In this document: positions 7,054 to 57,470 of the stretch, one piece after another | How positions within the stretch are numbered: position 1 is the first letter of the stretch | Layout: every line of letters starts with the position of its first letter | NCBI RefSeq assembly: GCF_963678975.1 | Contig: NC_089281.1 | Location: forward strand, 4,675,277 to 4,739,276 | Length of the DNA stretch: 64,000 bases | From: Dysidea avara | Taxonomy: Eukaryota; Porifera; Demospongiae; Dictyoceratida; Dysideidae | Reading direction: 5' to 3' | Made by a program: the position numbers and the translations under genes | Notes under the pieces: model-generated | Seen by the model: only the letters and a program-made list of their open reading frames with translations | What the model was told of the DNA's origin: nothing | Databases searched by the model: none

Positions 7054-8119
7054 GTCCACCCCATTAATTGTACTGTACGAGGCACTGTATTAAACACAAA
7101 AGCACCTGTAATTTTATTTCTGTTCTGCTTGCACATGATACCTGTTGTTGAAATATTTCCTGGATCCCGTGCAGTGAGAAGTTTGAACAGTAGAAAGTGT
7201 CATGTCCGTGATGTGGGAAAGATTGAACTCAAATTGAGGGTGGTAACAGATCTAAGTCTAAGAGGGCAGTCACACTGTAGTGTACGAGTGTATGGGAGTT
7301 GCTGACTACCAACGATTAAACCAGACATTATTAAGACTTTGTGGTGAAGTTGATTTATGAAGAGAAACAAACAAGGATGTGGAATATCAAAGTGGCCAAC
7401 CATGAATGCAGTGTAGTATTCACCTGATCTACACTCAGTTTGGGAACACCTGCTAGAACAGACATCCCAGCTTATAGTTCCTTAAAGGTAATGATGTTTC
7501 ACTTTGCCGATAACAACTATTAATGCTGTAATCCTTGTAGTGTGAAGTACGTAAAGCTCGCATAAAGAAAAGACCTTGATGTGACCATGATTTCTCATGT
7601 GATACATACATGCATTAAGCACATGCAGTAGGTGTAGAGGAGCATAGCGGCGGGTGTAGGGAGTGAAGAGATAGCTATGCAGTACAGGTGTAGGGCTGTT
7701 AGCTAGTGATAACACACCCCACAACACCTTTATATAAACGTACGTATGAACTGGGTACAGAGGAGCCGTATAAATGGGACCCTGTGTGTCTGAATGGGTT
7801 TATGGTTAACTGGTCATGGCTATCTTTGCCCCCCCCCCCCCGCCCTGAAAATCGTTCCTACGCCTTTGAATGTGTGCATACGCAAGTCACTGCACATTTA
7901 GTTTAACACAGGGGTGAGTTACCGTACCTTCCATCAAGGTGCTTTCCATATTCATAACAGTCACCAGTTTATCTCCTTTATAAAGTCACTCACTCGTCAT
8001 TGTTACGCAGAAAACGTGTTTGACCACAACAGCAATGTGCGATGATCACGTGATCAACCAGTTTCCTGTATTACGTAACTTAGTGGTTGAGCAAGTCTGT
8101 ACATAACGAGATTGCCTAT
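7054..8119. other. Upstream region of receptor A
   Basis: No gene recognised. A perfect E-box palindrome GATCACGTGATC lies at 8043-8054, about 170 bases before the likely start codon of receptor A; it may be regulatory. A poly-C run lies near 7831-7841. Confidence 0.35.
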
Positions 8120-8180
8120 CAATAGGCTACCGGATGTGCGTTATGTTGAGTAAATTTTTATCACCTTTGCTAGGTTCGCA

Positions 8181-8208
8181 CATAGATAATAGACACCCTA
8201 TTATCTAT
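8181..8208. repeat. 28-bp palindromic insertion flanked by an 8-bp direct repeat
   Basis: GGTTCGCA occurs at 8173-8180 and 8209-8216, with a 28-base palindrome between (CATAGATAATAG, ACAC, then CTATTATCTATG). Copy B has a single GGTTCGCA. The total gain is 36 bases, in frame. This looks like a tiny insertion or the footprint left by a transposon that makes 8-bp duplications. Confidence 0.75.
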
Positions 8209-8226
8209 GGTTCGCATAATGCTGAA

Positions 8227-15011: not shown

Positions 15012-16064
15012 CTATGAGTCTAAGTTATATCTTCTTAAGTTACCAAATTTCTGAATATTCTCTTGAATAATTGAGAGGTGTTCGTCCTCCCATTTAATTT
15101 TGTAACGAGATTTAGACTCTTTAGTGTACACTTGTTCCTCACATACTGCAAGGAAGTGATCTGAACAATCAACATTTAAAAACTCAAACAGCTCCATGAT
15201 TATTTTCTTTGGCTGTGTAATAAGGTCAATTCCATGCATCTCCAACACATCAAGATTGTATTTCTTCTTTGCATCCTCTATTGCTTGGTAGATAGTGAAG
15301 TACTCAGTAATCTTGTGATTGATAATTGTCAAGCTGATCTCATAGTCATTATTATTACCAGATTTGAGATTAGTGATTGTAACATTTTGGCTCTGCTCTC
15401 TATTTGAAAGTGTATACAATATTACAGAAGCAATGTTATCGTACGGGTTTCGAATGACATGAATAGCTTTAACTGGCACACCAACTACCGACTTTAACTT
15501 CTTGTAAACTGACTCCCATTGTTTGGGTATGTCCTTCAGTAATTTGGCACTCCCACCACCACTCTTGTCCCCTATAACATCAATGTAGGACTTGTATACT
15601 CCTTGGTACAAACCCTTAATAGCAAGTGAGTATCCTTTACTGTCAGCCTCTTCTGTCCTTAGTCCTCTACCATGACAAGACTCGTAAGAATTTTTCCACA
15701 AGTTATTGAACATACACGACTTATTACAATGCATAGGATACTTTCTATTAAACACGTGCTCTTCGTGTGCCATTACAATGTGTGGATGACTGTCTAACAC
15801 GCTACCAACGATGCTGTGGCCGCTATGAGGGTGTCCAAGGAAAAATACAAAACTCTTTACCCCATCAATGACTGCTTGAGGTAGTGGAGAGTAGTTTTCT
15901 TCGAGTTTTTCTTTCTTTACAGTCCGCGAAGTCTTCAGGTTTCCGACAACGAGGTTTGAACTGCCAAAAGACCACGAATGATAGTTTGTAAGATGATGTA
16001 TCACTAACAGAACGCATCCCGAGATCGCTAATAGTCCAATCACCTGTCTCCGAGACTTAATCAT
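15012..16064 (-). CDS. Type II membrane (Golgi-type) sulfotransferase
   Basis: Single-exon protein of 350 residues. A basic N-terminus (MIKSRRQ) and one hydrophobic segment (about 8-24) make a signal anchor, so the catalytic part should face the Golgi lumen. FVFFLGHPHSGHSIVGSVLD (72-91) is the PAPS 5'-phosphosulfate loop, although the usual basic residue of the loop is replaced by His/Ser. VIRNPYDNIAS (203-213) is the 3'-phosphate-binding motif with its Arg and Ser. The enzyme class moves sulfate from PAPS onto a glycan or protein hydroxyl; the acceptor cannot be told. Asn-X-Ser/Thr sites support a luminal location. The start is the first ATG, directly before the anchor. CACGTG lies about 30 bases upstream of it. 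The absence of introns could mean an old retrocopy. Confidence 0.82.
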   Translation of the reverse strand: MIKSRRQVIGLLAISGCVLLVIHHLTNYHSWSFGSSNLVVGNLKTSRTVKKEKLEENYSPLPQAVIDGVKSFVFFLGHPHSGHSIVGSVLDSHPHIVMAHEEHVFNRKYPMHCNKSCMFNNLWKNSYESCHGRGLRTEEADSKGYSLAIKGLYQGVYKSYIDVIGDKSGGGSAKLLKDIPKQWESVYKKLKSVVGVPVKAIHVIRNPYDNIASVILYTLSNREQSQNVTITNLKSGNNNDYEISLTIINHKITEYFTIYQAIEDAKKKYNLDVLEMHGIDLITQPKKIIMELFEFLNVDCSDHFLAVCEEQVYTKESKSRYKIKWEDEHLSIIQENIQKFGNLRRYNLDS

Positions 16065-17326
16065 AATTGGAAGCCGTCACGATCTTGTCACGTGTTAATT
16101 AGCTGACTCAAACCACGCCAGTACAAAACACTCTAATTGAACAATCAGGCCTATCCAAGAGTTAAATTGGTCTAAAATGCCACAAATATTTCGCGTATAT
16201 ATTTTCCAAAGTCTACACCACAGAAACCCATTACATTTGAGTGACTCTTGCGTTTAAATGTATGCTCAGCGGCTCACAGAATTTTGGTAGAACTCAGTTT
16301 AACCGTGTTATGATTGGGATACAGTTTTGAATCAGTTTGTGATACTTGGGTGTCATGACCCCGTGTTATCTTGGTCACTAAATATTTCTAGTTTCCTGAG
16401 TTATACTGAGAATTTCATCCATACCCAATATAATATGGGACTGAGTTCATGATATACTGAGTTTGCTATTATTCTACTTTGCATTTTGTGTTACTACTGT
16501 TTGACTACTGTGATGTTGTGTGGTGTCCCACTACTGCAAAACTTACGGCTATGTTTAGCTACTCTAAATTTGTGCTTCTTATACTCTATATGGTTTCATA
16601 AAGTACAGTCTATGCATCAAACATGACCTTCATAATTTATACAACTATATTTTCTTACTCAAACGGTATTAGCTATAGGGCATGTCACAAACCAGCCGAT
16701 TATTTTTCCAAAAATTAATAAAAAAAATTTGCATGAAAAGCAGAGTGTCTTTTTAGGTTATGGAATTCTTTGTCAACTGAAGCAGCCAGCCTGCTGTCAT
16801 TTAAAATGCAGTGATTTAACTACTGAATGTCTTTTTATATGTTTTTGTCACTTTTGTTGTGTGTTTTTGTAGATATGTAGCTATGTTGATTGTATACAGA
16901 ACTGAGTAGATCCCTATAGCTGTTAAAAAATATTATAATTAAAATATTACCAGAATGTGTCGACATCATTGCAAATGCAAACCCACTTTGTTTCCTACTT
17001 GTATGCCGGCAATATTACATGACAGTATCTTAAGAGGCAAGGCTGCCGACTTATCATAACCAATTATGTGTACACTTTATAGCTTGTTGAATGAAAGAAT
17101 TCATGTGCAAGAAGAATATTCAATAGTGGAATTTACTACACCTCTGGATTCAGTGTCGTACAGTTATATGATGCTTTAAGTTGCCTAATCTCAAGTAGCT
17201 ATTTACAAACACGTGCAACTAAGATGCTGCAATCAAGCTACTATATCATTAATACTACAGAAATAGTCACAAAATTGATTGCCTCACCATGTAAGCCAAA
17301 AGAAGCATCTTAATTGTTATAGGCCA
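16065..17326. other. Non-coding stretch
   Basis: AT-rich sequence upstream of the sulfotransferase, with no gene or defined repeat recognised. Confidence 0.4.
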
Positions 17327-27800: not shown

Positions 27801-29106
27801 TTTTTAATGCACGTAACTTCCCAGTTGCCTCCATTGCTGGCAAAATATCCGGCGAAACAGTGCAACCGGTACCGGCTCTGTATAACTTGTCAATTTCAAA
27901 TACTGTAACAGTTCCTGACTTTTTACCTAACCTCAATGGTAGCCACGCCACTGTTTGTGATTGCTGCACCCAATCACCAACTTGTGCTGAATTTTAATTA
28001 TGTGGTAAGAAACACAAGGTGACAGTGGTGGGGATGAAAACTATACTTTGATAGGTGTCTTTTGCGAACCTCCACGCAGTCATTGTAAGTGATCTTGGTA
28101 CAGGTGCTCAATAGAAGAAAATTTCTATTTGTCTAGAACTTTAAGTATAGGGGTGAATGTAAAAGGGAATTATCCTAGGCTGTGTAGTTCCTAAGCAGAT
28201 CACAACTTACTACTAAGTGGTCAGATTATACTGCATGATGTGCCTGAAATTTGTGGCTTATTTATATCATGTCTCATGAATTTTCTGATTTTATTAGCAG
28301 ATTGTTTTTAGCTATGCCCAGGGATTTTACAAAATAAAGGCTAAGACCTGTATAGCAGGGCTGACATTGAAACTCTGTTGAATAAAATGAATTCTGTAGT
28401 TGTCTTTTTACATTCCTAGACCCTGTACACCTGACTGTTTTGTTAGAGTAGCACAAACATGATCACTCTATTATGGTATCTCGATCCTAAGTCACTCACT
28501 GAAGTGGTGAGGGGAACAAAACAGACTATAGGGTACAACAACTCGAGGGGTAGCCAACCGCCCATGCAAACTTCTAAGTTGTGTACGAGAGTCTCAATAT
28601 TTAAAATGTATTTCTGTATTATTTCAATAAATATTTTTTCATGGATTTCGACGGATTTATAATTGATAGTGTACGAGAGTCCCAAGACATTGGTTACCCC
28701 TCGCAACAACTAATAAACTACTAACTTATACAGTACTTCTAATAACTGGCTACAAGTAGGGGAACACACCTAAGGGAAAAGGGGATTGTCATCAATATGG
28801 CACATGTTGCCATCTGACCCTCAACACCACCACACTAATTTTGTACATACCTATTTTAATTCTGTAATCTTGCATCTGGTGTCGTAGCAATAAAAATAAA
28901 ATTCAATGCCCAATACCTCAAGTCAAGATCATTCTGGCATAGCTGAAGTAGATTCTTCCTTGCAACTTTAGGAGGAACACCAGCTACTATAGGCCAATCG
29001 CTTTATTGAGAATAGCGCGCGGCGCTCACCAAATTTTAGCAAAGGTCGGGCGCCGCCAGACCATTTTGTGTGCATGTGCATGGAGTGGGCGAAGGTTACG
29101 CCATAC
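27801..29106. other. Upstream region of receptor B
   Basis: No gene recognised. Contains diverged copies of the recurring motif at about 28432-28487 and a GGCGCCGCCAGAC string at 29049-29061. Confidence 0.35.
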
Positions 29107-32100
29107 CTATATATAGGCTACCGGATGTGCATTATGTTGAGTAAATTTTTATCACCTTTGCTAGGTTCGCATAATGCTGAAATGTTGTCATTGTGTTATT
29201 TACTTCAGAAAACATTAGTACTTCTTTCGATACTAGCCTGGTTGCTGAGCCGTGGATCGCATGGAACAAATCTAAAGACATTACAAATACTTGGGTTGTT
29301 TCCATATCGGGGATCAGCGAATTGGAACGGAGAGTATGTTATACCCGCTGTAAGATTGGCAACAGACGAGATAAACAGAAACGACAGTATTTTACCTGGA
29401 TACATGTTAGAGTTAATAGAGGCTAACTCAGGTTGTGCACGCGACAGTGGAGTCCGTGAGTTTGTGAGAAATGCTCTACACAGCAAACACCCTCAACCAG
29501 TGGCCATTCTAGGAGCTGGTTGTTCTAGCTCTACCATCCCCATTGCCTCCATTGCTGGAAGAGATGATATTCGCCTCCCGCAACTGTCCTACGGAGCAAC
29601 TGCGCCCTCTCTGTCCTTCACCAGCTCATACCCCCTTTTTTATCGGACAGTTCCTACAGACGAGTCTACTTCTAAAGCAATAGTTAGTTTAGTGAAGAAG
29701 TTTAAGTGGAAACGTTATGGCATACACAATGCTGCAATTGGTACTATCCTAAACGAGAATGCAATTGTGACTCTACGTCTCGGCATGCAACATCACATTG
29801 AGGACTCCAAAGAAGTGTACTTTGGTGGCACTAGCCAAGATGCAGGCAGTTATGAGGATCAAATTTCTTTTAGAGAAGATATTCATTCTGCCAGCATGCG
29901 AATTGGTGTGATGTATGGGATTAGAGGGTTTGTTGGTGAAATGATGTGTTACTTGTATCATCACAAACTGACTTATCCATATGTTATCTGGATACTGAGT
30001 AACCATCGAGGAGATTGGTACAATACTGCAACAGATGACTGTACCATAGAAGAAATACAACAAGCTACACATGGAATAATCCATGTTAATTATCCGATAA
30101 GGACTAGCAGTGATGATGATGTGATTGATGTTACTGGTAAAACATTTAGGGAATATTATAATTCTTATGTTAATGAATCCAGAGAATATGCTAGTGAGAA
30201 AGGAGACAATTATAGCTCGTCACTGCTGAATAGCTGGGGTGCTGTTGCTTATGATTCCATGTGGACGTTAGGTCTGGCACTGCACAAAGCTGAAGAAAAA
30301 TTATCCGAATTCGATTCTAGTTTAGCCAACTTCTCATTAGGAAATTCCAATATTTCTAAAACCATTGTACAAGAGTTATCTAAAATTAATTTTGCAGGTG
30401 CTTCAGGAAAAGTCTCATTTGATGAAGGACATAAACGACCCTTCACTATAACAATTGACCAAGTACAAACTGGAACACTTAAAAGAATTGGTCTCTATCA
30501 TCCTTCCAATGACAGTTCAGTATTAGGTGAGCTAGTTCTTAATGATAGTGAATTATTGTGGTCTATAGACAATCCACCATCAGACATGTTCATGACACAA
30601 GTGTTATTAGCTCAGAGATGGGCTGGAATACTGATGTTAGTACTTTTAGTCATTGGATTTCTATGGAATAGCTTTTCCTTGTTAGTCAACTTACGTTATC
30701 AAAATTTTTCGTCAATCAAAGCATCAAGCCCTCAACTGAATTACATGATCTTTGCCGGTAACAATTTATTAGTGTTAAGTGGAGTCTTCCTTGTGGTCAA
30801 AGCAAATGCAGAACATGACATGGTAATAGTTTCAACTCTATGTCAGGCAACACAATGGACGTCTAATCTTGGACTGCTACTAGTTCTCAACACAACATTA
30901 CTGAAGAGTTGGAGGCTTTACCGGATATTTCAGTCTTTCAGACGAAATCCAGGAAAGTTGATTACAGACAATGCTTTTATTGCCATTTCCATTGGTTGGA
31001 TATTTATCAATACAAGTTATCTCTTGGTGTTCACGTTTTTTAGTAGGTGGGATGCTACAAGGGAAAAGTTGTTCCCTGTAGAAGATCAGCTCCGTGAAAA
31101 GGTGGTATATTGTGTTCCATCCAACCTTATTGGATTGCTTTACATTCCTCACTTTGTGATATCTTTCATTTTGTGTTTTTTGGCTTTCTTGATTCGTAAA
31201 GTCTACCGCAAGCACTTTAATGATGCTAAGCACAAACAGTTTAATGATGGTAAATATATTGCTGTGTTTTTCTATACCATTGTACCGATTGCTACAATCT
31301 GTGTAACTATATCAAAGTTGCTATCTCAAGTATACAACATGGTAACAATATCTTTGATACTGGAGTGTACTGCTATTTGCTGTATTGTGTACATGTGCCA
31401 GTTGACATTGTTTGTACCAAAAATGTTACCAGTCTTCAGACACTTGTACTGTCACAGATGAATTGAAGATATGATAGTGTATTAATGGTTTTAATTTTTA
31501 TAATTGCTTGTAAGAAATTTTTTAATTAAACCAAGAACATTGCACATGAATTTTAAAATTTAATTTAATTGCATCTACAATGAGTTATGGAGTGGTAAGG
31601 TTTTCTTCAATTTAAAAATGCTTCATTCTCCGCAACTACTAAGGTCATTGTTCAAACCAAGAGGCTGCTATCTATTATTAACTCTTGCTCAAACTGCATA
31701 AGTTTTCTGCCATCAGATTATCACTAATTTAGAATAAACAGCTCGGATTAGTAATTCACAATGTTAAGCACGTGATTAACCATGGAGTTGTTTAGCACAT
31801 AATTAATCATGAAGTTGTTTTCATAACATTAATTATTTTCTATATCTACCATACATCATGCACATAAACTAAATATGGTATATAACTTGTGCTTACTAGC
31901 TATAATTAATTAATGGTCAGAAACTTCAGCTACCTATACCTGTGGTATGTAGCTATAACTACCAGTAATTAATGGTCAGTAAGTTCAGCTACTGGAGGTA
32001 GAGATGATTACTTGTCACACACTATTAACATAACTTCCATACAGATTTTGTGATTTTTTCAGATACATGTACAGTCAAGTTTAGAAAACACTACACATGT

Positions 32101-38429: not shown

Positions 38430-38911
38430 TTAAGTACTATGCCTCATGTATATGTATGAATGCATGAGCCCGAGGGCCATAGTAATTTTAGTCAGGAGAA
38501 GGCCAGCGTAACGACCACTTGGATTATAACCAAATGCCACGACTGGTGGATATGTAGATAGGGAGGTATTCTTGGTAGAAATATTAATAGTATCAAGAGT
38601 CGCTCATACAAATATTGTGAATTCTTGATAGTATGTACTTACCAATTGTGTTCTTGCTAAACTTGTAGCTAATTTGTACTCGTTGATCTTCTGTAATGCA
38701 CTAAGCAGTTTCTCCCATGTAGGCTGTAATCCATTCTTATCAGCCAACCAGTAGCGATATACCCTAACAAGAGCTTTCATTGGATTATCGTGATATTTAT
38801 CACCAAGTCTCTCCAACTTGTCAATGGGAACACACAAAGCACATCCAAGAACAAACCACTTGGGATTAACTGACATTGTTAACATTATCAAATTCCTGAA
38901 CTGTAACTTTC
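38430..38911 (-). CDS. Death-domain exon and terminal exon of the 7TM-ZU5-Death gene
   Basis: Exon 38643-38911 (TTTTACAG acceptor, GTAAGT donor) encodes residues about 831-920 with a Death-domain pattern: LQFRNLIMLTM, WFVLGCALCVPIDKLERLG, then MKALVRVYRYWLADKNG, PTWEKLLSALQKINEYKLA. The Trp in YRYWL and the WEKLLSAL helix are family marks. The last exon, 38430-38570, follows a TTTCTACCAAG acceptor in phase 0, begins NTSLSTYPPVVAFGYNPSGR, and ends in TAA. It is the reason I close the gene here instead of joining it to the CARD exon 12 kb further on. Confidence 0.72.
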
Positions 38912-41900
38912 CTGTAAAATGTGCATAAAATATAAAATGAATACAACAGGACAAGTAAGTACCATACATAAAACCTTTATATAATATCAAATCTGGTGTA
39001 GTTGTGACCTAGTTTGGGAAAACTGGTCTTATCACCAATTTAAAAGTAGCAAGATGTGCCAGTTTTAAGTATTCAGTGTGTTGTAACTCACCAATGGTTG
39101 AAGCTACATTTACCAAATTTTCACACATGTTATACACCAATTCCTTACCTTCCAGTACAAGTAGCCAACAGCTACATTTTACATAGTTTTTAACTTGATG
39201 TTGACTGTATCAAGTGAGCTCCAATAAGGGTGGTGGGAGGAGGTAAAGTGAGGGCAAGAAAATGACAGATGAACCTGTAGCAGTGGCAGATCCAGAGCCC
39301 CCCTCTCCCCAAAAATAATTCTGTACACAAGATCAAGGTACTCCAATAAAGCAGTCAGTCAAATACTCTAATAGAACAGTCACAATGTGTATGAAAATTG
39401 CATCTGGAGCACCAGCCCACGCATGAGCGCACTTAGCTACATAACCTGCAGAATAATTAACTTGGTCCTTTGAATATTGTTCTTATATGAGAATGTACTT
39501 TAGGCACAATGACTGTCACTAATCCCTACATGTAGCTCTTGATTAATGTATACCACTTAGAAAGTATGATCTATTACTATGATTTGTGTGAAAATTTTAG
39601 TTCTAAAACATGTGAAATACGTGAAAGACTAAAGCGTTTAGGGGCACAAGGACCCCTGCTTTGTAGAGCTACCTACTACTCTGGTCATGGTGTACCAACC
39701 TGGACTTGCTCCTGCATAGGAAAGAATTAGGATAAATTATGGGCCATTGAGATCTCACAACTGGCTACAGCACAGGTCTTTATTCAAAACCACAGAGCTG
39801 TATAGTCACAAACAACCATCCCCAGGCTGGCCAGAGCTCCATTAAAGCTGTACATGCAGCTTGCTACTGTGTTTGGGAAAAGCAGCAGACCACTTAACTA
39901 AAGTCTAACTGATTTTGACTGTGAAATTTGATGGCAATAAGACCGCATGATTTTCCAAGATCCAGTCACATATTACAATAACGAGTGCAGGTTATTTGAA
40001 CTTCAAAAATTATCCTATGTTAAAATGACTGTTCAATTAGAGAGTGTGTACTTATCACAACACTTCCCCAGGAAGAGGTCATAGCCATGGGAAGCCTTAA
40101 ATGAACAGAATTATAAGGTTTCAAAGTGACTAATGCGATAATTATTTTAGAGACGCTTATTCACTTTAAGGTGCTAGAGAAGCTATTTTGCATGATTTCA
40201 TGACAAAAGCAAAGCTATTTAATGAGGTATGACTGCTTTAAAAATTGTACAATAAGTAATGTATTTAGTCATTAAACAAAGAATTTAGCTGCAGATCCCA
40301 TTGACTGTTCTATTAGAGTATATTGATATCATTTAATGGTTTCTGACCCCACCCCCTAAAAAAACAAAAAAACATGTCTGCTATTGTTTAAGGAACAGAG
40401 GGGAGAGGCAGTAGGAGCCCAAGAGATAGGGCATTATTACTACTACTGGATTCACTACTACCGTTGTTTCCTTGAGCAAGAAGCTTCACTCCCATTACTT
40501 CAGCCACTCAGTTTATGAATTTATGCAAAATTTAAATGTTTGGGAATATTTATTCTCTGCAATATAGTATAGTTGTCATATTCAGTAATTACAGTTCCTA
40601 CACAAGGGTATTATTTCTTCTTGCATATTACACATAATATTATTTTGTGAATTTCTTATTAATATGGAATGTGTGCATGTAGTTACCTGAATTAAATTCA
40701 TCTTCATCAGGGAGATGTTCAATACTGTCTGTACTTCTATATCCTGAATGTGTATATATTTAGTGGATCACTAGTCATATATAACTTATTATAACTGACC
40801 ACTTGTGCAACTTCCAATATTTTTCCGTTTAAGAGAAGAATCTGACTCACTTGAACTAGCCCCAAACATGTCTACAAGACCATATCAACAATACAGTGTG
40901 TTTATATTGTGATAGTCTTACCAATACTGGGAACTGTTAGCTTGCCAGCAATAATTTCTGTACCACAAGTAAGTTGGTAGTTCACATATTTGAATGATTC
41001 AAAGAAGAATTTGTCTTGAGCTTGTACCACCACATTGACACATGGTGGGTAGAGCTTCTTATCCATTCTTAACTGTAGCTCCTGCAAACGTCCATTTTCA
41101 TAATATTGATGAAAGTCTACATCTTTCTGGCAAATCTACAAAGGTAGGAACACACTGCTTATTATAGTTTTGTTTACTTCCATCAGTACATAACGTATTT
41201 ACCCAACTACCTTCTTCATATTGTTTGTACCTTGTTGTGTGATAGTATCACAACTTCAGCCTTGTCCTGAAAGTGATGTCCTTCACACTCAATGGATACT
41301 TGGTCACATCCTTGTGTGAATGAAAACTCTGACAATGTTGTATACCCCAATTCACTTCCATACTGGTCTTGTAATTTCTAAATATTATACATTATAAATG
41401 CAAACAGTCAGCTATTTGTCCTCACCTCCATACATGTTTGTATTAACGGTACAATACAGATGTGAGCAGTCCATTTAGTTTTAAGAGGGGTCATTCCATG
41501 TCAAATCAACAAGGAATTTAGGATCACCTCCCAGATTTTGACGAAACTTGGTGTGTTTGTAGTACCTGTGGTGCTTATCACTCATGCAAATTTTTAGCTC
41601 AATACATCCCATAGTTTCTGATTTATGACTACAAATATTTTGATTATTTCATGAAAATTTGGTCCATCTCTAGTTACAAAATCAACTGCAACTTTGTACT
41701 GTGTCAATATTTTAAAACACAATTTTCACTGATGGAAGACTGTTGATTGACCTTTCCAGTGATCCCTAAATTATGGGATATCTACTTAATTATGGTTCAA
41801 AAGTACTTCATTGAAAACTTTAATCCTTTATATTTTGAAAAATGCTGCTTGAAATTTTTCAAATTCTTTTGTGAATAATGATTGGGTCATAGTCTATGTT

Positions 41901-44900
41901 TGATAAAAATTTTGTGGTGGGACCACAATGGGCTCAAGAGATATAATGAATTATGTTGTGGTATGTAGTGGAATTTGCAGTCTATTATTGCTGTATTGGA
42001 ATGTACACCTCCAATAATCACTTGCAACAAGGCCATGCCAAGTTTGTCTTACAGAGTGAAGGTGTCTAGGTACATTGCAACCTATATTAGTGACCACCTG
42101 TATTGAAAGACCATCCATAAGCTGCAGCTAATTTATACTTTAATCGGATCTTAATGTATAGCACCAAAGCATCAATCTTTTCTAGCAAATCCAAAAATGG
42201 TCCTTATTAGACAGGTTGACTATAAATGAGATCATCATGCATCCATAAACACATTAATGTTGTACCATCTCTTCAGTTATACCTTATTTATTAAGTAAAA
42301 TCTTGCCATAGTGCACTTACATACATATCCCCACTCTACACTATTCAAGTTACGTACACGGCTGCATAGGTACAACAGACCTCCTCAAAAAGGATATCTG
42401 GGTACCTTGATAGCCTCATAATCTTACTTTATAATTTTACGTATGTACATTTTGGACCCAAGACAAGTCTGTGGTTTCTCAAAATGAATACTTCATCGGG
42501 AATAGAAGAGTTACACTGTATACAGTAGATGCATTACTTGTACCAAGAGTTTTTATATTATTAACACTTGCTTGCACCTTAATGCGTGATTTATAGTACT
42601 AAAATTAATGGTTTTTCAAAGTATGTTTGTGTTCACGTTTTGAAGATCAGTACAGGTAAATCTAAAATATGTGGTCAACATGTTTACTTTCTACGTGAGT
42701 ATGTGTATGAATTTATGACTTGATCTTCAAAGTGGTCGTGAATGTAAAGTAATGTAGTAATTAATGAGGTACAATTAATGCATGTATATGGTAAAACCCC
42801 TCCATTGCTAGGACCATAATAAAGTGCTCATATTACAGAAGCCACAGAAGTATCTTGGTCTAACTGTATGTACACCGCTAGAGTGGGAGTACAGTGTATA
42901 AACAGGTGTCCTGGTTATCAAGGTATCCGGTGTCCTGGTTATCAAGGTATCCGGGTATCCCTTCTGAGGAGTTCTGTTGTATGTATCTATGTAGCCATAT
43001 ACGCAACTTAAATATGGCTAAGTCCACTACAGTGGGATTCAACTTAATAAAGAAGGTACTTGTGAAGAGATGGTACAATATTTACATGATGTTTATGGAC
43101 ACATGGTGGTCAGATCTATAATTTATAGTCAACCTGTTTAATAAGGATCATTTTTGGATTTGCTAGGAAGGGTTGATGCATCGATGCTATGCATTAAAGA
43201 AGTATAACTTAACTGCAGCACATAGATGGCCTTTCAATACAGGTGGTTACTAATACAGGTTGCAATGTACCTAGACACCTTCACTCTGTAAGACAAACTT
43301 GGCATAGTCTTGTTGTGAGTGGTTATTGGAGGTGTACACTCCAATACAGCAATAATAGATTGCAAATTCCACTACATACCACAACATAATTCATTATATC
43401 TCTTGAACCCATTGTGGTCCCACCACAAAAATTTTATCAAACATAGACTATGACCCAATCATTATTCACAAAAGAATTTGAAAAATTTCAAGCAGCATTT
43501 TTCAAAATATAAAAGATTAAAGTTTTCAATGAAATACTTTTGAACCATAATTAAGTAGATATCCCATAATTTAGGGATTACTAGAAAGGTCAATCAACAG
43601 TCTTCCATCAGTGAAAATTGTGTTTAAAAATATTTACACAGTACAAAGTTGCAGTTGATTTTGTAACTACAGATATACCAATTTTTCATGAAATATTCAA
43701 AATATTAGTGGTCCTAAATCAGAAACTATGGGGTGTATGGAGCTAAAAATTTGCATGAGTGATAAGCACCACAGGTACTACAAACACACTAAGTTTCGTC
43801 AAAATCCGGGAGGTGACCCTAAATTCCTTGTTGATTTGACATGGAATGACCCAGAGGCTGTTTCTGTGTCATAGCAATCACAGCATATTTGTTGTTAGGA
43901 ATATCAGTAAGTGCCAGCTTGTCTACTGCAATGCAGTAGTAACAAAAATGGTCTATTTTTATAGAACCATAAGGTCTGCCAATAGGAAACCTTCCACCAT
44001 CAATGGTAAACATGGATCCTTCAATTATATCACTTGGAGAATGTATACTCTTAACAAATTGTAGATTGTGTGCATTCATTGGGGTTGCAATATCAGCAAA
44101 ATGTGGTAAACGTAATTCAATAGATTTCTGTAATTCCACATCCATGCACAGCCAGTATATGGCAGACACAGGTGATTTGTTAGTGAACTTGACGTTACCA
44201 ACTAAAGTGGCTGCAAATTTCAGTTCTGCTAGTACTCCACTGGGGATGGCTCCAGTTGGAACTACAACAGTTACTCCATGTTTGTATGAGTGAAATACTC
44301 CTCCTCTTTCATCAAATAAACCAACTTCAATGTCACCAATCAAATTTTTAGTGTCAACTGGTGAATGTGCAGGAACCACCTCAACTGGAACAACAAAAGT
44401 TAGCCACACATATGACAAGTAAACTAGTACTGTACAACAGGGAACTTTGATGAAGAACTCTCTGTGTGAGGCTTTAATTTGTCAAACTACTCATAACAAA
44501 CTCTCTGAATTAAGGGACAAAGATTTTAATCTCATATATACGTTTTTACCTCTGAAAGAGGAAAACCTCTATATTACAACAAGTATATAAACTACAGAGC
44601 TTTTCCCAACAAAATAAAGTGAAGAGATAAAACTGTCGATTTGCTACCAACATCAAAGTCAATTTAATTACCATATAATATTCTTTTTACCACATCAAAA
44701 AGAATTTCGAGTAAAGTAGAGTCACCACTTTACCACTATAAGCTCCTAATATAGGCTTAAATCTCTCGGTCCATTTTAGAGAAGTTCAACTGTAGGTGCC
44801 TTTGAGTCCAGCCAGCACTAAGTATCAGAGGATGCATCTACCATTGGTCAACATCTCATTTTATGAAAAGATTCGTGAAAGCTTTCTGTCAAAATTTCTT

Positions 44901-47900
44901 GTTGTACAGTATATACCATGCAGGCACAGGAATTTTAATTTTCGGTGAAAACAAAAATCTTTCTTATATCAATGTGCAACCAAAAATTTAATGTAACATA
45001 AACTGCCATGCAAACTATTCCCTGTGTGCTATATATAGTAGATCTGCTGCATACCTGTATGTACATGTAGACTCCTTGACTATAAGAAGTATGACAACAG
45101 TGAATTGGTGCATACAAAACAAACGTACCATGTGGTATGTGGGATAATGGCCGTGTACTAACTGAGATTGGTTCACAATTAAATTCAACAAATAGTGTTG
45201 AGAAGTCATCAGACTTGTGGTATGACTTGTTAGTTGTATCACATAGATTTGATGCGTACTGTAAACACGTTTCTCTCTTATCACTATAGTCCACATCACA
45301 TGTATGAGACAAGTACTCATACTCCAAAGCACTACTACATTCAACTGGGGGCACACATTCCACCTGTTTGGGTATGGGTAGTGTGACACACCTGTAAATC
45401 TCACTGGGTTTTTGTATTTCTACCTTCCTTACATCTTGCATTTCTGTTTTGTTGGTTTCTGAAAAACTGTTACAAATATAGTCAAAGGTAAGCTTGTTTG
45501 TGACTTCTGTAACAACTTCTGATTTTGATTGCAAGCTAAATATTGGACGTTCATGCTTTGTTTGATGACTTTTAAGGGTTATGCTTTGAGGTGGTCGTAT
45601 CTTTTTGCTCTGCTTCACTGTTCTCTTCTTGAATAACCTCTTAATTCTTTGCGGTATATGAGAAACAAGACATTGTAATACCAACACCAGCTCGAATACC
45701 TTAAGTATCGATTGTAGAACAAGCCATGCTGATCGCTTTCCTTGCGCGTCTTCAACACACTTATTAGTAAAAGTAACTTTAATCGATGAGGCTGTTAAAT
45801 GGTAACACAGCAACACCAAATACACATAGCCTAGCAGCACTCTTAGTAAACCTCTTGCTAAAACCTCCCTGGCTGATGTTACATATATCTGACCTTTGAT
45901 TTTTTTAATAGTAAACCACAGCTTGGTATAATTGATGATAAACAAAGTGGTTCCGACCGTACCAATCAGCACCAGTACAAATGTTAGTATCACTACTGCT
46001 GTGAGTAGTGAGCCATTTGCTGACAGGAGTATAACAATGATTGTAAAAGTTAATAGCAAAACAGGAACATTGATACTGTAGAAGATGTATTTGGATTTAT
46101 GTATTGAATGTTCATACAATAAATAAAACTGGTAGGCTGCTGTCACTAGCAAATTGTTCATTAAACTAGCCACAGATAGTATTTCAAATATTTCAGTAGT
46201 TACTGCAAGTTGTCGGCTGGCCAGGCTATTCACCCCGATAGTTAATAACACATAATAAGTGGCACTGGTAAACGACCACACACAATAAGTTGACACTATG
46301 CACACAAATGAAGCATGTTTTCTCACTGATTGTCTCTTCTCCCACAGGATTAGTCCACACCAACAAGTAATGATTAATAATAAAGTGAAGAAATAATGAA
46401 GTGGATATAATAAAGAGCTAACCAGGAAGTGCTCATGGTACCCCAGTAATCCTTGTTACCAATACAGGGGCTGATCCAGGAATAAATGAAAGGGGGTGGC
46501 TGGCTTAGTTCACAAGCTTTACATGTGCAGTAAGGGTGTAGCTATACACTGGTGAGAGAGGTGACTGCAGACAGCGTGCGGAGCACGAGCTGTCTAGGGG
46601 GGTCTGGGGGCATGCCCCCCCAGGAAAATTTTTAAAATTAGGTGTTCAAAACATGCTATTTAGATCAAATTTTACTTAGTTTCAAAACTTTTGTTCTTAT
46701 ACAGTAACTGTTGGCTGCTACTGCTACTGCCCTAACTACACTATAGTGTACAGATACAATATCCTAAAAGGGTCCCTTTAGGATAAATTGTATCTGTACA
46801 CTGTAGTGTAGTTAGAGCAGTAGCAGCTAAGAAAAGCAGTAGCAGCTAACAGTTACTGTATAAGAACAAAAGTTTTACCGTAGCCCCCTTCCCTCCACCC
46901 TGAATCCACCAAAGAATTAGATTGAATCTGGAAGTGATTTTGACTGAAAAGAACAATTGTATGTAGCTACTAGCTAGAATTTCAGACAGTGTACTAGCTG
47001 TTTAGAAGAAACACTGTAAAGCTAGCTACAGCATATAGTTTAAAAACTTGTTGGCAGCTGTGCTATTATGTCCATTTAACAACTGCAGCTGTAAATGAAC
47101 AAAACCATAATAATAAATGTCCACCTGAAGGTTTTGCTTCAAATAAAGTGCACTGTTAGTGTAGATGCCATGTGCTAGTTTGTACAGATGTCCAGGTCTA
47201 TTTTAGATTATTTTAGATCAAAAGTTATAGCCCAACAAGGACAGAATCCTCTAAGTGAAACCCTTACTACTGATGGAAGTAACAGTGACAGTGAAGTTGG
47301 GGAAGAAGGTTTGATTGACAATGAGACTGAGTCTGGAAGTGAAACTCCAGTCACAATCACTAATGAAAGTGGTATCAACAATGACAGTGATGGGAATGAA
47401 TGTCAATCTCAGGGCATAAATGAAGAGACAGAGGCTACCCCTTCCACTACTGAAAGTATTAGAGTTAATGCGGATTTCATTGAAGCAGCTAACTGGCCAG
47501 ATAATTTGACAGTGAGCCTTCAACAATCAACTGGTGAGCTTTGCCGTGAGGTTGCACCAGAAACTTTCCATGATAGTGATCCTGTTGAATTTAATAGCAA
47601 TGGTGAGCCATCTTATCCTAACGTGAACTTTGTATCTAACTCAGAATCTAGTGATATTCTGCAAGTGGCCATTAGTAGATCAAGAATAATAAAAGATCAT
47701 GAAAAATATGAATTGATTACTTCATCACAAAGCAATCTAAGGAGCACTGATTTTGACACAGTCTACTTCACTGTTTCTGGAGGAAGGAAAAGAAAACAGA
47801 TAACTTTTCAATCTCGATGGCTTCAAGATTACAAATGGTTACGTTATGGTTTGGAGAATAGTCAAGGAGGATGGTGTTTGCCCTGCATTTTGTTTTTAAC

Positions 47901-50180
47901 TGACAGTGAAAAGACACATCTCGGTGCATTTGTGTGTACGCCCTTCAAGAATTACAACAAATCCAAGGAGTTGATGGAGAGGCATGCCAAACATGCATAT
48001 CATTTGAGAACAGTAGATCATGCCTTTGAATTTACAAGAAGGTGGGCTAATCCTGAATCAAGAATCGATAGTCAGTTAATTGATAAAAGCTCTAAGAATT
48101 TTAAATTTAATACTGAAGTATTGCCAACAATTGCTGAGACAGTATTATTGTGTGCAAAGCAACGAATTTCTCTCCAAGGTCACAATCAGGATAAGGTGAA
48201 CTTTACACAGGAGCCATTAAGAAATGAAGGAAATTTCATTGCCATACTTAGATTGCTGGCAAAGAACAATAAAGCACTGAGCGAACACTTAATACTTGGT
48301 CCAAAGAATGCAAAATATACCAGTAAGACCGTTCAAAACGAGATACTGGAAATAGCTGCTGACCAAATTCGTGCATTTTATCGAACCTGCATACAGAAGT
48401 GTCCACATTTTTCATTAATTGCTGATGAAGCTACATCTCATGGTAAGGAGATTTTGTTGGTTTGCTTAAGGTTCTTGGAAATTGATAATGAAAATTTTCG
48501 TGTGAAGCCAATAAAGCACGAAGTGTTACTTGACTTCCATTTTCTTCAGAGGATAACTGGGAAAAGCATTGCAGATGGCATCTTGCAAGTTTTACAAAAA
48601 CATGAAATTGATGTTAAAAATTGCCGAGGGCAGGCATACGATACAACAGCTTCCATGAGCTCTTCAAATTCTGGTGTACAAGCACATATAAAGAATAATG
48701 CACCAGATGCAGAATTTCAAGGTTGCTGCCTGCATAGTTTGAATCTAGTAATATGCCATTCTTCAAAGGTTCAAGCTGTAAAAAATATGATTGATAACTG
48801 TCATCAGGCGTTCTTATACTTCCACAACTCTCCAAAGAGACAACGGTTTCTTGAACACATAATTCAGCGCTTGTGTCCATCTGCCAGGAAATCTAAGATA
48901 AATGGGCTGTGTAAAACAAGATGGGTTGAACGGCATAATACTTTCACCACAATTTTAGAATTGTATCCTTACCTTATTAAGACTTGGGAACATATTTGTT
49001 CACCTGCTGATGATGACAATGAAATTTATCCTGATGGAAATACTTGGAACTGGGATTCTGAATCTCGTAGCACTGCTAATGGTTTGAAGCACATTTTTAC
49101 TAGCTTTGAGCACGTGGTTGCATTTTTGCTATCAAAAGAATTATTGGAGCCGATTAAACCAATTGCAGAATGTTTACAAGGTAGACTACAAGAGGTATAC
49201 TTTGGTTTTAAAAAAGTTGATGAAGTCAAGGAGCATTACAAGCAACTTCGTGAAAATGTAAATGCTGAACATAATAGAATTTATCATAAAGCTCTAAATC
49301 TATGCAGGGATATTAGCAGCAGCGAAAGTATGCCCCGTGTTATAAGAGGCCGTCAAACTAGACCAAACCCTACAGTAAGCTCACCAACTGATTACTGGAG
49401 AGTGACAATTACCATTCCTTTGTTAGACTCAATTATAAGTGAATTGGAAGCCAGATTTTCTGTAGATACACGAGCACATTATGAACTGTGTGCATTGGTG
49501 CCCACTGTAATTACCACAAAAGACGAACATCAACTGTGTACCATCTTAAAATCTAAATGGAGTCATTTTCTACCAGCAGAAGATGACCTTGACAGTGAAC
49601 TTGCTAGATGGAAAGCTCACTGCAATAAATTCCATGCCACTTTAAAGGAGAAGTCTATAACTCACTTGCTGAGTGAAGATGCAGATCCAATATTCTTCCC
49701 CAATATAAGAGAACTCCTGTGCATATTGGTAATACTTCCGATTGGAAGCACTGAAGCAGAAAGGACCTTTTCTTGTCTCAGGCAAATTCATTTGTGGTTG
49801 CGCACCACTATGACGGATGAAAGACTGGGCAACCTTGGGGTGTTAGCAATGCAAGGATTTAGCTTTCAACTGAATGTTGAACAAATATGTAAAGAGTTTG
49901 CAACTAAACATAGCAGAAAAATGTGTACAAGTAGTGTTTTATATGATTAGTATGAGCTGTTAATGCTTAATTTGCATGCCGTGATATATAGTTTAATCCA
50001 GGGTGGGTGGCTAGCCACCCCATCCACCCCCCCTGGATCAGCCCCTGCAATATTTAACCTGGTGAATACATCTATCAGATCCAAGCTAGCTAAGGTGGTG
50101 CAGTTATTTTGGGAGCCAGTCGATGCATTGAATGCGATCGAGCTTCCGTTCCACGTGTTCACTGTGATCGTCTCCATCAT
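38430..50180 (-). CDS. Seven-transmembrane receptor with ZU5-UPA-Death tail (nine-exon model)
   Basis: Exons on the minus strand: 50059-50180, 45129-46417, 43853-44384 continued at 41426-41487, 41231-41377, 40922-41135, 40800-40871, 40687-40743, 38643-38911 and 38430-38570. Each lies between AG and GT, and every junction agrees in phase. Counting one copy of the AGAG duplication at the transposon, the total is 2901 bases, i.e. 966 residues. Layout: glycosylated N-terminus (1-40), seven membrane segments (about 42-293), cytoplasmic tail (294-470), ZU5 (about 485-590), UPA (about 595-740), Ser-rich linker, Death (about 835-915), short tail. ZU5-UPA-Death is the autoinhibitory module of UNC5 and PIDD; Death domains recruit partners. 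The joining of the 7TM part to ZU5 rests on phase, strand and order, not on a transcript. The copy shown is interrupted in the UPA exon. Confidence 0.68.
40687..41377 (-). CDS. Middle exons (UPA end and Ser-rich linker) of the 7TM-ZU5-Death gene
   Basis: Four exons: 41231-41377 (starts KLQDQYGSELGYTTLSEF, phase 0 to 0), 40922-41135 (ICQKDVDFHQYYENGRLQ, phase 0 to 1), 40800-40871 (MFGASSSESDSSLKRKNIG, phase 1 to 1) and 40687-40743 (YRSTDSIEHLPDEDEFNS, phase 1 to 1). The first two complete the UPA-like beta domain. The two small exons form a Ser/Asp/Glu-rich linker that could be phosphorylated. Both small exons have lengths divisible by three, so they could be skipped without a frame change. 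Confidence 0.68.
41426..44384 (-). CDS. ZU5/UPA exon split by a transposon
   Basis: The exon starts at 44384 after TTTTGTTGTTCCAG, in phase 1. The ZU5 part reads VEVVPAHSPVDTKN, DIEVGLFDERGGVF, then VTVVVPTGAIPSGVLAEL, matching the ZU5 core (vPpGAi). Up to VIAMTQKQPL it is coding; there it runs into the element 41488-43852 and ends after about ten foreign codons. On the other side it resumes at 41487 with KTKWTAHICIVPLIQ and ends at 41426 before GTGAGG. With the element and one AGAG removed, the exon is 590 bases and fits its neighbours (phase 1 in, phase 0 out). No AG acceptor or GT donor at the borders would allow splicing of the insert as a neat intron. Confidence 0.78.
41488..43852. mobile_element. 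Fold-back transposon (2365 bp) inserted in a coding exon
   Basis: The ends are GGGTCATTCCATGTCAAATC and its complement, and the flanks are AGAG at 41484-41487 and 43853-43856. The inverted arms run about 41488-42425 and 42910-43852, roughly 940 bases each and clearly alike throughout (for example AATCCAAAAATGRTCCTTAT). The spacer of about 480 bases (42426-42909) carries no recognisable transposase. Near the inner end of the right arm, GGTGTCCTGGTTATCAAGGT is tandemly doubled (42904-42951). The superfamily is not assigned; the 4-bp duplication is the observed fact. Confidence 0.85.
45129..46417 (-). CDS. Seven-transmembrane exon of the 7TM-ZU5-Death gene
   Basis: This large exon starts at 46417 after CTTCCTGGTTAG (phase 2, matching exon 1) and ends at 45129 before GTACGT (phase 1, matching the ZU5 exon). 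Seven hydrophobic segments are visible: LLYPLHYFFTLLLIITCWCG (about 43-66), then about 76-102, 117-143, 151-172, 178-204, 228-247 and 271-293. The order and spacing fit a seven-pass receptor with the N-terminus outside. A basic stretch, RIKRLFKKR, follows the last segment, then a Ser/Thr/Cys-rich tail of about 175 residues. I do not recognise the receptor family: no DRY, NPxxY or GPS motif is visible. The frame stays open past the donor to 44935, which is probably intron read-through. Confidence 0.75.
46686..46876. repeat. Long hairpin inside the hAT element
   Basis: About 95-base arms: AAAACTTTTGTTCTTATACA on the left, and its complement closing the right arm, with AACTACACTATAGTGTACAG and TATCCTAAAAGGG nearer the centre. 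The right arm has an extra AGCAGTAGCAGCTAA unit. It sits between the left terminus and the transposase gene. It may be a nested MITE or a subterminal structure. Confidence 0.75.
47188..49950 (+). CDS. hAT-superfamily transposase (ZMYM1-like, TTF zinc finger)
   Basis: One 920-residue frame without introns. An acidic, Ser/Glu-rich N-terminus (1-190) is followed by a TTF-type zinc finger: FQSRWLQDYKWLRYG, GGWCLPCILF (Cys pair) and ERHAKHAYHLRTV (His pair). The RNase H-like catalytic part starts near 300; SLIADEATSHGKEILLVCLR carries the expected first catalytic Asp, and VKNCRGQAYDTTASMS and FQGCCLHSLNLV are conserved blocks of this DUF4371 group. The hAT dimerisation region is near the end: LPIGSTEAERTFSCLRQIH and TMTDERLGNLGVLAM. 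The third catalytic acid is probably the Glu in STEAERTFS. It is intact and flanked by matching termini, so it may be active. It cuts and pastes elements carrying its terminal repeats. Confidence 0.9.
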   Translation: MSRSILDYFRSKVIAQQGQNPLSETLTTDGSNSDSEVGEEGLIDNETESGSETPVTITNESGINNDSDGNECQSQGINEETEATPSTTESIRVNADFIEAANWPDNLTVSLQQSTGELCREVAPETFHDSDPVEFNSNGEPSYPNVNFVSNSESSDILQVAISRSRIIKDHEKYELITSSQSNLRSTDFDTVYFTVSGGRKRKQITFQSRWLQDYKWLRYGLENSQGGWCLPCILFLTDSEKTHLGAFVCTPFKNYNKSKELMERHAKHAYHLRTVDHAFEFTRRWANPESRIDSQLIDKSSKNFKFNTEVLPTIAETVLLCAKQRISLQGHNQDKVNFTQEPLRNEGNFIAILRLLAKNNKALSEHLILGPKNAKYTSKTVQNEILEIAADQIRAFYRTCIQKCPHFSLIADEATSHGKEILLVCLRFLEIDNENFRVKPIKHEVLLDFHFLQRITGKSIADGILQVLQKHEIDVKNCRGQAYDTTASMSSSNSGVQAHIKNNAPDAEFQGCCLHSLNLVICHSSKVQAVKNMIDNCHQAFLYFHNSPKRQRFLEHIIQRLCPSARKSKINGLCKTRWVERHNTFTTILELYPYLIKTWEHICSPADDDNEIYPDGNTWNWDSESRSTANGLKHIFTSFEHVVAFLLSKELLEPIKPIAECLQGRLQEVYFGFKKVDEVKEHYKQLRENVNAEHNRIYHKALNLCRDISSSESMPRVIRGRQTRPNPTVSSPTDYWRVTITIPLLDSIISELEARFSVDTRAHYELCALVPTVITTKDEHQLCTILKSKWSHFLPAEDDLDSELARWKAHCNKFHATLKEKSITHLLSEDADPIFFPNIRELLCILVILPIGSTEAERTFSCLRQIHLWLRTTMTDERLGNLGVLAMQGFSFQLNVEQICKEFATKHSRKMCTSSVLYD
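50059..50180 (-). CDS. First coding exon of the 7TM-ZU5-Death gene
   Basis: ATG at 50180 (or 50177), 40 codons plus two bases, ending at an ACCAG/GTTAAA donor. The peptide starts METITVNTWNGSSIAFNAST and includes NGS, NAS and NCT glycosylation sites, as in a short receptor ectodomain. There is no separate signal peptide, as is usual when the first membrane segment serves as the signal. The codons are CpG-rich compared with the surroundings, in keeping with a 5' end. A minus-strand frame continues into the hAT element (to 49947) and is an artefact. The link to the next exon relies on matching phase 2. Confidence 0.6.
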
Positions 50181-55893: not shown

Positions 55894-57470
55894 CTACCAC
55901 AATAGACTAAGGCTTCCATTCCTTGGACACTGTAGATAATGCTGAGGGAAAAAAAAATGAAATTCGGAAGTTGTGCAGGTTTTTGCTGAGATGGTCAAAC
56001 ATGATACGTACTAACTCAGCACAATGCTAATGTTAGTAGACAGGTAACATTGCCATGACTAGATTACTTATAAACACAAGTATATACCTTTTTATGTGAT
56101 TGTGATGAAGGAACATCGCTGGAGGCTGAAGTAACTTCATCAGGACTATCCGAACGTTCCGACCCATCTGGACGCGTCCAACACTGAATGAACCCATCCT
56201 GGGTTGCTACAAACACACAGTCTTCTCTAAAACATAAACCAGTTAATCGTTCAGACCAAATCTTCTTGTTCACTAGAGGTTCCATAAGATTCACCTCGCT
56301 CATCTTCGGAGCAGTATCATCACTGACTGTGAACTCTCCAAAACCACTGCTAGCAGAATTGACACGATGGTGGCTTGGGCTAACAAACATGTTACGTAAT
56401 TTCTTAGGAAATTTTTTATCCTTGTGTGAGCGGCCCTTCTTTTTCCCGGTTGGAGAAAGGCTTCTTTCTTTTAAATTTTTAGCATTGTTCACCTGCAAAT
56501 GAGCGTCGTTTACTGTAACTACAGGTAGACTAGACTCCATTTTCACTTGTGAGTCTGGTAAATGAGTTTCAGTTTCTTGAGTTACACTTCCTCCCTGGGA
56601 TACAGATTCCTCTGGCCTGGGAGACATGGACTGACTTGATGGACTCAGTGAGGAAAGTGCATCACCTCTATCATCTGGTAAATGGCTGGTACTTTGATCA
56701 GCCAGAAACTTTGAGTCTCTACGGTAAGATCTAAGTCGTGTAAACGGTCGTCGTATCTTTAGTGCATCTCCAGAAAGCTCCCATAGTAAAATGTGAGTGT
56801 CCTGGCCCACAGAGCCAAACCGGTAAGAAATGACACCCAACTTTCTTTCTTCAACAACCTGTTTCGGAATACTAGAAGATCTTGGCCTCATGTCATTTTC
56901 ATTGTCTACTATTTCAACACCTGTCGATTCACCAGCACTACTAGTGTATGGGTCAAACGCAACAGCATTGATCCATGATTTGTGGCCTTCTCCTCTTGCA
57001 ATAATTTTACGGTGTTGGAATGACCAAACGTTCACCATATCATCTTCACCTCCTGTCACAATGTAATTGCCATCAGGACTCCAACAAACACAAAGCAGTG
57101 CTCCAAAATAGCTTCTCATTTTTCCATATAACTCATGCATTTTAAAGTTGTATACTCGCAGATACCCATCCTGGCTTACCACAGCCAAGTGAGTGCAGTC
57201 TGGGGAAAAAGCTATTTCATTCACAGATCCATGGCCCACAGACCACTTCTCTAAAATTTGACACTTTTGCTTTGACTTGCATGTGTAAATTTTTGTACTT
57301 TCTGACTCCAGTTCTTTGGTCAAACCAAACTGTACTTTAGTTCCGCTGACCTTCTGCTTACATTCAGTGTCCCAGAGGTATATGTGGCCACTTCTATGGC
57401 CAGTGACGAACATTGTCTCACAGCCAGGGAACCATTTGATGCATGTCACTTGAGTATTGTCAACAGAACC
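55894..57470 (-). CDS. WDR20: WDR20 homologue (WD-repeat activator of USP12/USP46 deubiquitinases), C-terminal part
   Basis: The main exon is 56088-57470 (acceptor TGTTCTCCGTAG, donor GTATAT, phase 0), and the last is 55894-55941 (acceptor TTTTTCCCTCAG), which ends SLSLLW then TAG. The protein matches WDR20: VTCIKWFPGCETMF, IYTCKSK, WSVGHGSVNEIAFSPD, LAVVSQDGYLRVYNF, YFGALLCVCWSPDGNYIVTG, EDDMVNVWSF, GHKSWINAVAFDPYT, then YRFGSVGQDTHILLWEL. A long disordered Ser-rich insertion precedes the last blades (LMEPLVNKKIWSERLTGLCF), as in vertebrates. In animals WDR20 binds and activates USP12 and USP46. The roughly 150 N-terminal residues are not visible up to 64000 and must lie in unseen or missed exons. 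The C-terminal 16 residues are not family-like. Confidence 0.88.

Follow-up and report, generated by a model that had tools for sequence, protein, structure and literature searches.

A putative family of seven-pass receptors with a ZU5-Death tail in the sponge Dysidea avara, including a copy broken by two transposons

The arrangement of a ZU5 domain ahead of a Death-fold domain is found in the UNC5 netrin receptors, which carry Ig/TSP domains and one transmembrane segment in front of ZU5 and then Death, and in the soluble, autoproteolytic ZU5-UPA proteins PIDD, CARD8 and NLRP1. As far as the consulted part of PMC3210808 goes, self-cleavage occurs at HF/S in PIDD and at SF/S in CARD8, Cys is possible as the nucleophile in such self-cleavage reactions, and ZU5 packs on the effector domain in UNC5B as well as in a model of CARD8. 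Seven-transmembrane (7TM) bodies joined to a cytoplasmic signalling module are, in turn, represented by GPCR-PIPK, GPCR-TK and GPCR-TKL/K, which carry a C-terminal kinase or enzyme; GPCR-PIPK and GPCR-TK were reported in sponges (PMC12716839, seen in part), and ZU5, Death and UNC5 are mentioned nowhere in the main text of that paper. Moreover, a literature search over titles and abstract openings, which covered few subscription papers and no bioRxiv preprints, retrieved no 7TM-ZU5-Death fusion.

We herein analyse a window of 64,000 nucleotides from D. avara (C10:4675277-4739276, where C10 is contig NC_089281.1), in which the original prediction had placed a nine-exon gene for a seven-pass receptor with a ZU5-UPA-Death tail. 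This proposal is upheld in part: the window gene itself is broken and UPA was not recovered by sequence, whereas two intact sister genes, conserved splice sites and selection on the 7TM exon support the combination of a seven-pass head with a ZU5-Death tail. The window copy (ZR1, minus strand) and its sisters (ZR2 and ZR3, plus strand of the same contig) resemble UNC5 in the order of ZU5 and a putative Death domain but show seven proposed membrane segments instead of Ig/TSP domains and a single one, with UPA not detected. With PIDD, CARD8 and NLRP1 they share a ZU5 ahead of a putative Death-fold domain, and their HFC motif, compared by sequence alone, resembles the HF/S and SF/S cleavage sites given in the same part of PMC3210808; unlike these soluble proteins, the ZR products would be membrane receptors with Cys in place of Ser. 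Finally, as in the GPCR fusions, a 7TM body appears to be joined to a cytoplasmic signalling module, which here is ZU5-Death and not a kinase or enzyme.

Three related genes and the lesions of the window copy

When the 7TM exon was used as a query against the assembly (550.8 Mb, 108 contigs), four matches were obtained with 9 of 9 candidates scored: ZR1 itself, two on C10 and a weak one on contig C13 (E 0.002). Each of the three C10 matches lies directly upstream of a ZU5 exon, and the C13 match is without one. ZR2 and ZR3 are located ~36 and 57 kb from the window copy (Table 1); in both, the N-terminus and the 7TM region form a single continuous exon, which is followed by the same exons as in ZR1 in identical order. 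Our models of the two sisters, with exon ends placed by hand from homology, consist of 7 exons each, all GT-AG, with phases 1,0,0,1,1,1,0 in both. We consider it likely that the three loci form a gene family in which ZR2 and ZR3 are intact 7TM-ZU5-Death receptor genes and ZR1 is a broken copy, and the 7TM-ZU5-Death architecture as such is probably real.

Table 1. Parts of the window copy ZR1 (window positions) and location of the sister genes (positions on C10)
Feature	Position	Strand	Remarks
Exon A, first part	50048..50180	-	Start codon and N-terminus up to transposon 1; last 5 bases, TATTG, are the target-site copy
Transposon 1, hAT type, in exon A	46465..50047	+	TIRs, DUF4371, multicopy edge
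Exon A, second part	45129..46464	-	Seven membrane segments and cytoplasmic linker; donor CACATG, then GTACGT
Intron, 7TM exon to ZU5 exon	44385..45128	-	Phase 1; 744 bp
Exon B, first part	43853..44384	-	ZU5 domain with HFC motif; PF00791 1.1e-7
Transposon 2, in exon B	41488..43852	.	653-bp inverted arms
Exon B, second part	41426..41487	-	First 4 bases, CTCT, are the target-site copy; matches the continuous ZR2/ZR3 exon
Exon C, UPA-region position	41231..41377	-	67-71% identity to ZR2/ZR3; phase 0
Exon D, UPA-region position	40922..41135	-	64-65% identity to ZR2/ZR3
Exon E, Ser-rich linker	40800..40871	-	Length and phase equal in ZR2/ZR3
Exon F, linker	40687..40743	-	Length equal in ZR2/ZR3; ends read from sequence
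Exon G, Death domain	38643..38911	-	92-94% identity to ZR2/ZR3
ZR2	C10:4756145-4762477	+	Unbroken; 950 codons, 0 stops up to Death exon end
ZR3	C10:4777314-4781407	+	Unbroken; 954 codons, 0 stops up to Death exon end

Comparison with the sisters corrects the annotation of the window, since two of the introns proposed originally are transposons within coding exons: intron 1 corresponds to a 3.58-kb hAT-type element inside the 7TM exon and intron 3 to a 2.37-kb long-TIR element inside the ZU5 exon. Transposon 1 is bounded by perfect 16-bp TIRs (46465-46480 / 50032-50047), has TATTG on both sides and contains, on the strand opposite to ZR1, a transposase frame (47179-49950, +) with a DUF4371 match (9.4e-8) and a hAT dimerisation match below the cut-off (0.0014). 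A genome comparison of positions 46400-46620 (40 of 68 candidates scored) gave 35 of 42 matches beginning at query bases 63-66, which is the element edge, and for query bases 1-55 the only match outside the window was ZR3. The first part of exon A aligns with the continuous ZR3/ZR2 exon across the empty site; this site, reconstituted from the joined flanks, aligns over 269 ZR3 bases with a single gap, which corresponds to one base lacking from ZR1 between 46393 and 46392. The arms of transposon 2 are 94% complementary, 32 out of 40 genome matches to the end of the element terminate at one and the same position, 43853, beside the arm end (40 of 1081 candidates scored), and exon B resumes beyond the element as in ZR2/ZR3. 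As judged from its sequence, ZR1 is broken, and probably has been so only recently; we rejected the window gene as an intact one, and because two transposons interrupt its coding exons and one base is missing, the production of a 7TM-ZU5-Death protein from ZR1 is not supported. A further occurrence of the end of transposon 1, at C4:7373820-7374018, is 100% identical over each of its two matching segments (124 and 39 bases), which suggests that this element moved recently.

It might be argued that the transposons are spliced out together with the introns and that the original model is right for ZR1, giving a working protein short of ~18 residues in the N-terminus/TM1 and ~29 at the ZU5 exon end, a possibility compatible with our main reading of ZR2 and ZR3. 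By coincidence, splicing from a GT at 50058 to an AG at 46418 would bypass the frame change as well. However, the splice sites implied by the original phases at introns 1 and 3 fall in sequence that is coding in the sisters, the skipped bases code in both of them, a portion of TM1 would be out of frame, and the donors (GTTAAA, GTGATT) were judged weak, which makes such a rescue of ZR1 highly improbable. The 3' end of the original model did not stand either, as nothing equivalent to its ninth exon (38603-38430) was found in the 264 kb of C10 examined. Its total of 966 codons becomes 949 when the gene is rebuilt from its own phases; one exon in this rebuild is shifted by a base, which creates artificial stops at that point and leaves the total unaffected. 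In the region between exons F and G, a 63-codon stretch (39009-39209, -) is repeated at three other places on C10 with 56-72% identity and is possibly a mobile-element fragment. Elsewhere in the window, we noted two similar long class C receptor frames (8107-10506 and 28993-31458, both +; ANF_receptor 9.7e-42 and 4e-39, 7tm_3 5.8e-25 and 3.5e-25), a WD40 protein (56067-57470, -; WD40 5.1e-22) and a sulfotransferase (15015-16076, -; 6.4e-7).

The junction between the 7TM and ZU5 exons

The 45129/44384 junction of the original prediction, which joins head and tail, is retained: it is a phase-1 junction, and ZR2 and ZR3 have theirs at the homologous position. The donor is found there in all three copies (TACATG/GTAAGT in ZR3, TACATG/GTAGGT in ZR2, CACATG/GTACGT in ZR1), and the acceptor of the ZU5 exon is CAG followed by TTGAGG in each of them. 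The intron measures 744 bp in ZR1, 613 in ZR2 and 269 in ZR3. A separate start of the ZU5 exon had been named beforehand as an observation that would speak against the fusion. No ATG is present in the open frame upstream of this exon in any of the three copies, and its first in-frame ATG is codon 80, inside ZU5 (ZR2, ZR3).

Nevertheless, the same region could be divided into two genes, namely an intron-poor 7TM gene with its own stop and a ZU5-Death gene with an unrecognised first exon. The 7TM frames do pass the donor and reach a stop, after ~11 codons in ZR3 and ~44 in ZR2 (in ZR1, the open frame holding the 7TM exon has 506 codons, 44935-46455, minus strand), and the relatives on C13 are stand-alone 7TM open frames on a contig with no ZU5 match. 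Additionally, the intron contains chance ATG-to-GT mini-exons, 7 in ZR3 and 24 in ZR2 (two copies scanned), owing to which a separate ZU5-Death transcript, beginning in a short extra 5' exon, is possible. Neither does conservation mark the exon end: when the last 90 exon bases were compared with the first 90 intron bases, the exon was no better conserved in all three pairs (exon versus intron identity, 57/85 vs 53/85 for ZR3-ZR2, 50/84 vs 53/78 for ZR3-ZR1 and 50/85 vs 54/83 for ZR2-ZR1). Given this, coding sequence is assigned as far as the donor on the basis of the donor itself and of a linker motif upstream of it, which is common to the three fused-type 7TM exons (E 3e-6 to 2e-4) and did not appear in the single C13 7TM aligned with the ZR exons. 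This distribution of the motif argues against two genes, as do the equal position and phase of the donor in 3 of 3 copies, the lack of an in-frame ATG before the ZU5 exon together with a ZR3 intron of merely 269 bp, and the fact that each of the three C10 7TM exons adjoins a ZU5 exon. Hence, we regard the division into two genes as unlikely, though deserving of attention, and favour a continuous 7TM-ZU5-Death frame in ZR2 and ZR3.

Domains, selection and possible exchange between the copies

The tail was recognised by profile to a different extent in its three parts. ZU5 (PF00791) exceeded the cut-off in ZR1 (1.1e-7), ZR3 (4.4e-8) and ZR2 (3.2e-7), and in the genome, where all 75 candidates were scored, 45 match ZU5 at E up to 0.001; the UNC5B structure 3g5b matched the ZU5 profile only at E 1.7. 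The HFC motif is shared by all 7 ZU5 exons that were aligned (out of 45 in the genome) and was not seen in the ZU5 exons inspected on contig C12. At C12:4.10-4.40 Mb we observed an array of Kelch-like frames directly followed by ZU5 exons (e.g., L002-L005, L009, L010, L012-L015, L017, L019); its blocks look nearly identical between copies, and the Kelch match in L003 (4.9e-13) is just below the model cut-off. Death (PF00531), which yielded at least 150 matches genome-wide (150 of 653 candidates scored), matched in 6 of 6 cluster relatives at E up to 1, with the best at 5.6e-5, and a profile search found FADD among PDB chains at 0.013. ZR3 (0.011) and ZR1 (0.062), taken singly, are both below the cut-off. 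Thus, the Death identity appears supported at the level of the family, with single copies being weak. UPA (PF17217) gave no match in six family members and no PDB chain match, and a genome search returned two matches, both elsewhere and below the cut-off; therefore, exons C-D are named by UPA position only. Of the three tail domains predicted originally, then, ZU5 was recovered in ZR1, Death fell short of the cut-off in this copy and UPA was not detected.

The head likewise agrees with the earlier statement that it belongs to no recognised family, as scans at E up to 1 of ZR1, ZR2 and ZR3, and of the gene in L024 on C13, matched no Pfam 7tm family. A Pfam family for the 7TM region was rejected on this ground, as was a PDB chain for the C13 7TM relative by sequence, and spliced ZR2 and ZR3 proteins gave no match to Ig or TSP. 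Seven hydrophobic segments, set by hand, lie in one exon; with these segments, the ZR3 loops contain 2, 3 and 8 K+R on the proposed inner side versus 1, 0 and 1 on the outer side. NxS/T sites occur in the N-terminus, three in ZR3 and two in ZR2. On the basis of the hand-set segments and the loop charges, the head may be described as GPCR-like.

Substitution rates, calculated with our own NG86 script, reveal purifying selection on the diverged 7TM exons: dN/dS is 0.37 for ZR3-ZR2 (dS 1.72, 469 codons) and 0.33 for ZR3-ZR1 (dS 1.32, 400 codons), the ZR2-ZR1 pair being saturated. TM3-7 has lower values (0.29 for ZR3-ZR2, 0.22 for ZR3-ZR1), and the linker evolves faster (0.79 for ZR3-ZR2, 0.51 for ZR2-ZR1, third pair saturated). 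The ZU5 and Death exons are 87-94% identical among the copies, with dS of 0.10-0.28 and 0.08-0.12, respectively, and exons C-F show a dS of 0.69 (ZR3-ZR2 only). A mosaic boundary is found even within one exon: between ZR3 (C10:4777452-4778747) and ZR1 (45129-46464), dS amounts to 0.13 in TM1-2 and to 1.66 in TM3-7. This patchwork of dS suggests gene conversion or recombination between the copies. The many transposon-like frames at the locus and the homogenised look of the exons would also fit a scenario in which recombination brought together exons from unrelated genes and none of the three remnants is functional. Two copies, however, are fully open at a 7TM dS of 1.7 and a dN/dS of 0.37, and we find this scenario very unlikely; ZR2 and ZR3 are better read as intact genes.

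Relatives, possible origin and possible function

The head is related to two neighbouring, mutually related (E 1e-31) 7TM genes on C13, L045 and L046, whose N-terminus and TM1 are akin to those of the ZR 7TM region (profile comparison by hhalign, 95.9%, E 5.1e-9, 57 columns). Unlike the ZR genes, they have no ZU5 on their contig, none of the 45 ZU5 matches of the genome search being on C13. The tail, in turn, is found in three further ZU5-Death genes on C10, with ZU5 exons near 4799983, 4843007 and 4903968. Upstream of the last of these lie a frame matching Ig_3 (1.4e-10) and, below the cut-off, the Unc5 N-terminal model (2.3e-4), as well as a second frame containing a single strong hydrophobic segment (4898864), so that this sibling is like UNC5 in having Ig and single-TM frames ahead of ZU5. 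Several frames upstream of 4799983 are Ig-like by eye, one of which gave no match in Pfam, and are accompanied by a strong single-TM frame (4799480). For 4843007, a possible Ig frame lies ~14 kb off, with no match over the cut-off, and nearer frames are retroelement-like by eye. One of four candidate Ig frames exceeded the Pfam cut-off. Taken as separate frames, the Ig, single-TM and ZU5 exons suggest that in the neighbouring C10 genes this tail is combined with Ig/single-pass heads. The simplest history would be that a 7TM exon replaced the Ig and single-TM head of a neighbouring ZU5-Death receptor; the heads may then have diverged, and gene conversion or recent copying may have maintained the similarity of the ZU5 and Death exons.

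An intact gene of this family would give rise to a seven-pass membrane protein of ~950 residues. Its short N-terminus, which could be glycosylated, would face outwards and be followed by seven helices and a cytoplasmic linker of ~180 residues, after which would come ZU5, the stretch at the UPA position and Death. This layout is based on a gene structure deduced from homology, uninterrupted reading frames, the conservation of splice sites, selection acting on the 7TM exon, the identification of ZU5 and family-level Death matches, and from it we infer the functional steps that may follow. The 7TM head could sense a ligand or the state of the membrane and, in response, alter the conformation, clustering or exposure of the ZU5-Death tail. 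The tail, similarly to those of the UNC5 and PIDD type, might then recruit Death-domain adaptors and thereby feed into apoptosis or immune signalling. Given the HFC motif, we also considered a broader speculation, to which we assign a low probability, that these genes represent a class of seven-pass death or immune receptors with swapped heads on a shared ZU5-Death tail, in which ZU5 would cut itself at HF/C and the ligand would free a Death fragment. The GAIN domain of adhesion GPCRs, ZU5 and Nup98 reportedly share one autoproteolytic fold, to go by the title of a cited paper. If the speculation held true, the self-cutting tail would be an intracellular mirror of the GAIN domain with a PIDD-like output.

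The locus hints at how such receptors may originate, as one conserved tail is found with two head folds side by side and the heads diverge under selection. Should ZR2 and ZR3 be expressed in fused form, Death-domain assembly would be driven by a seven-pass receptor directly, within a single chain.
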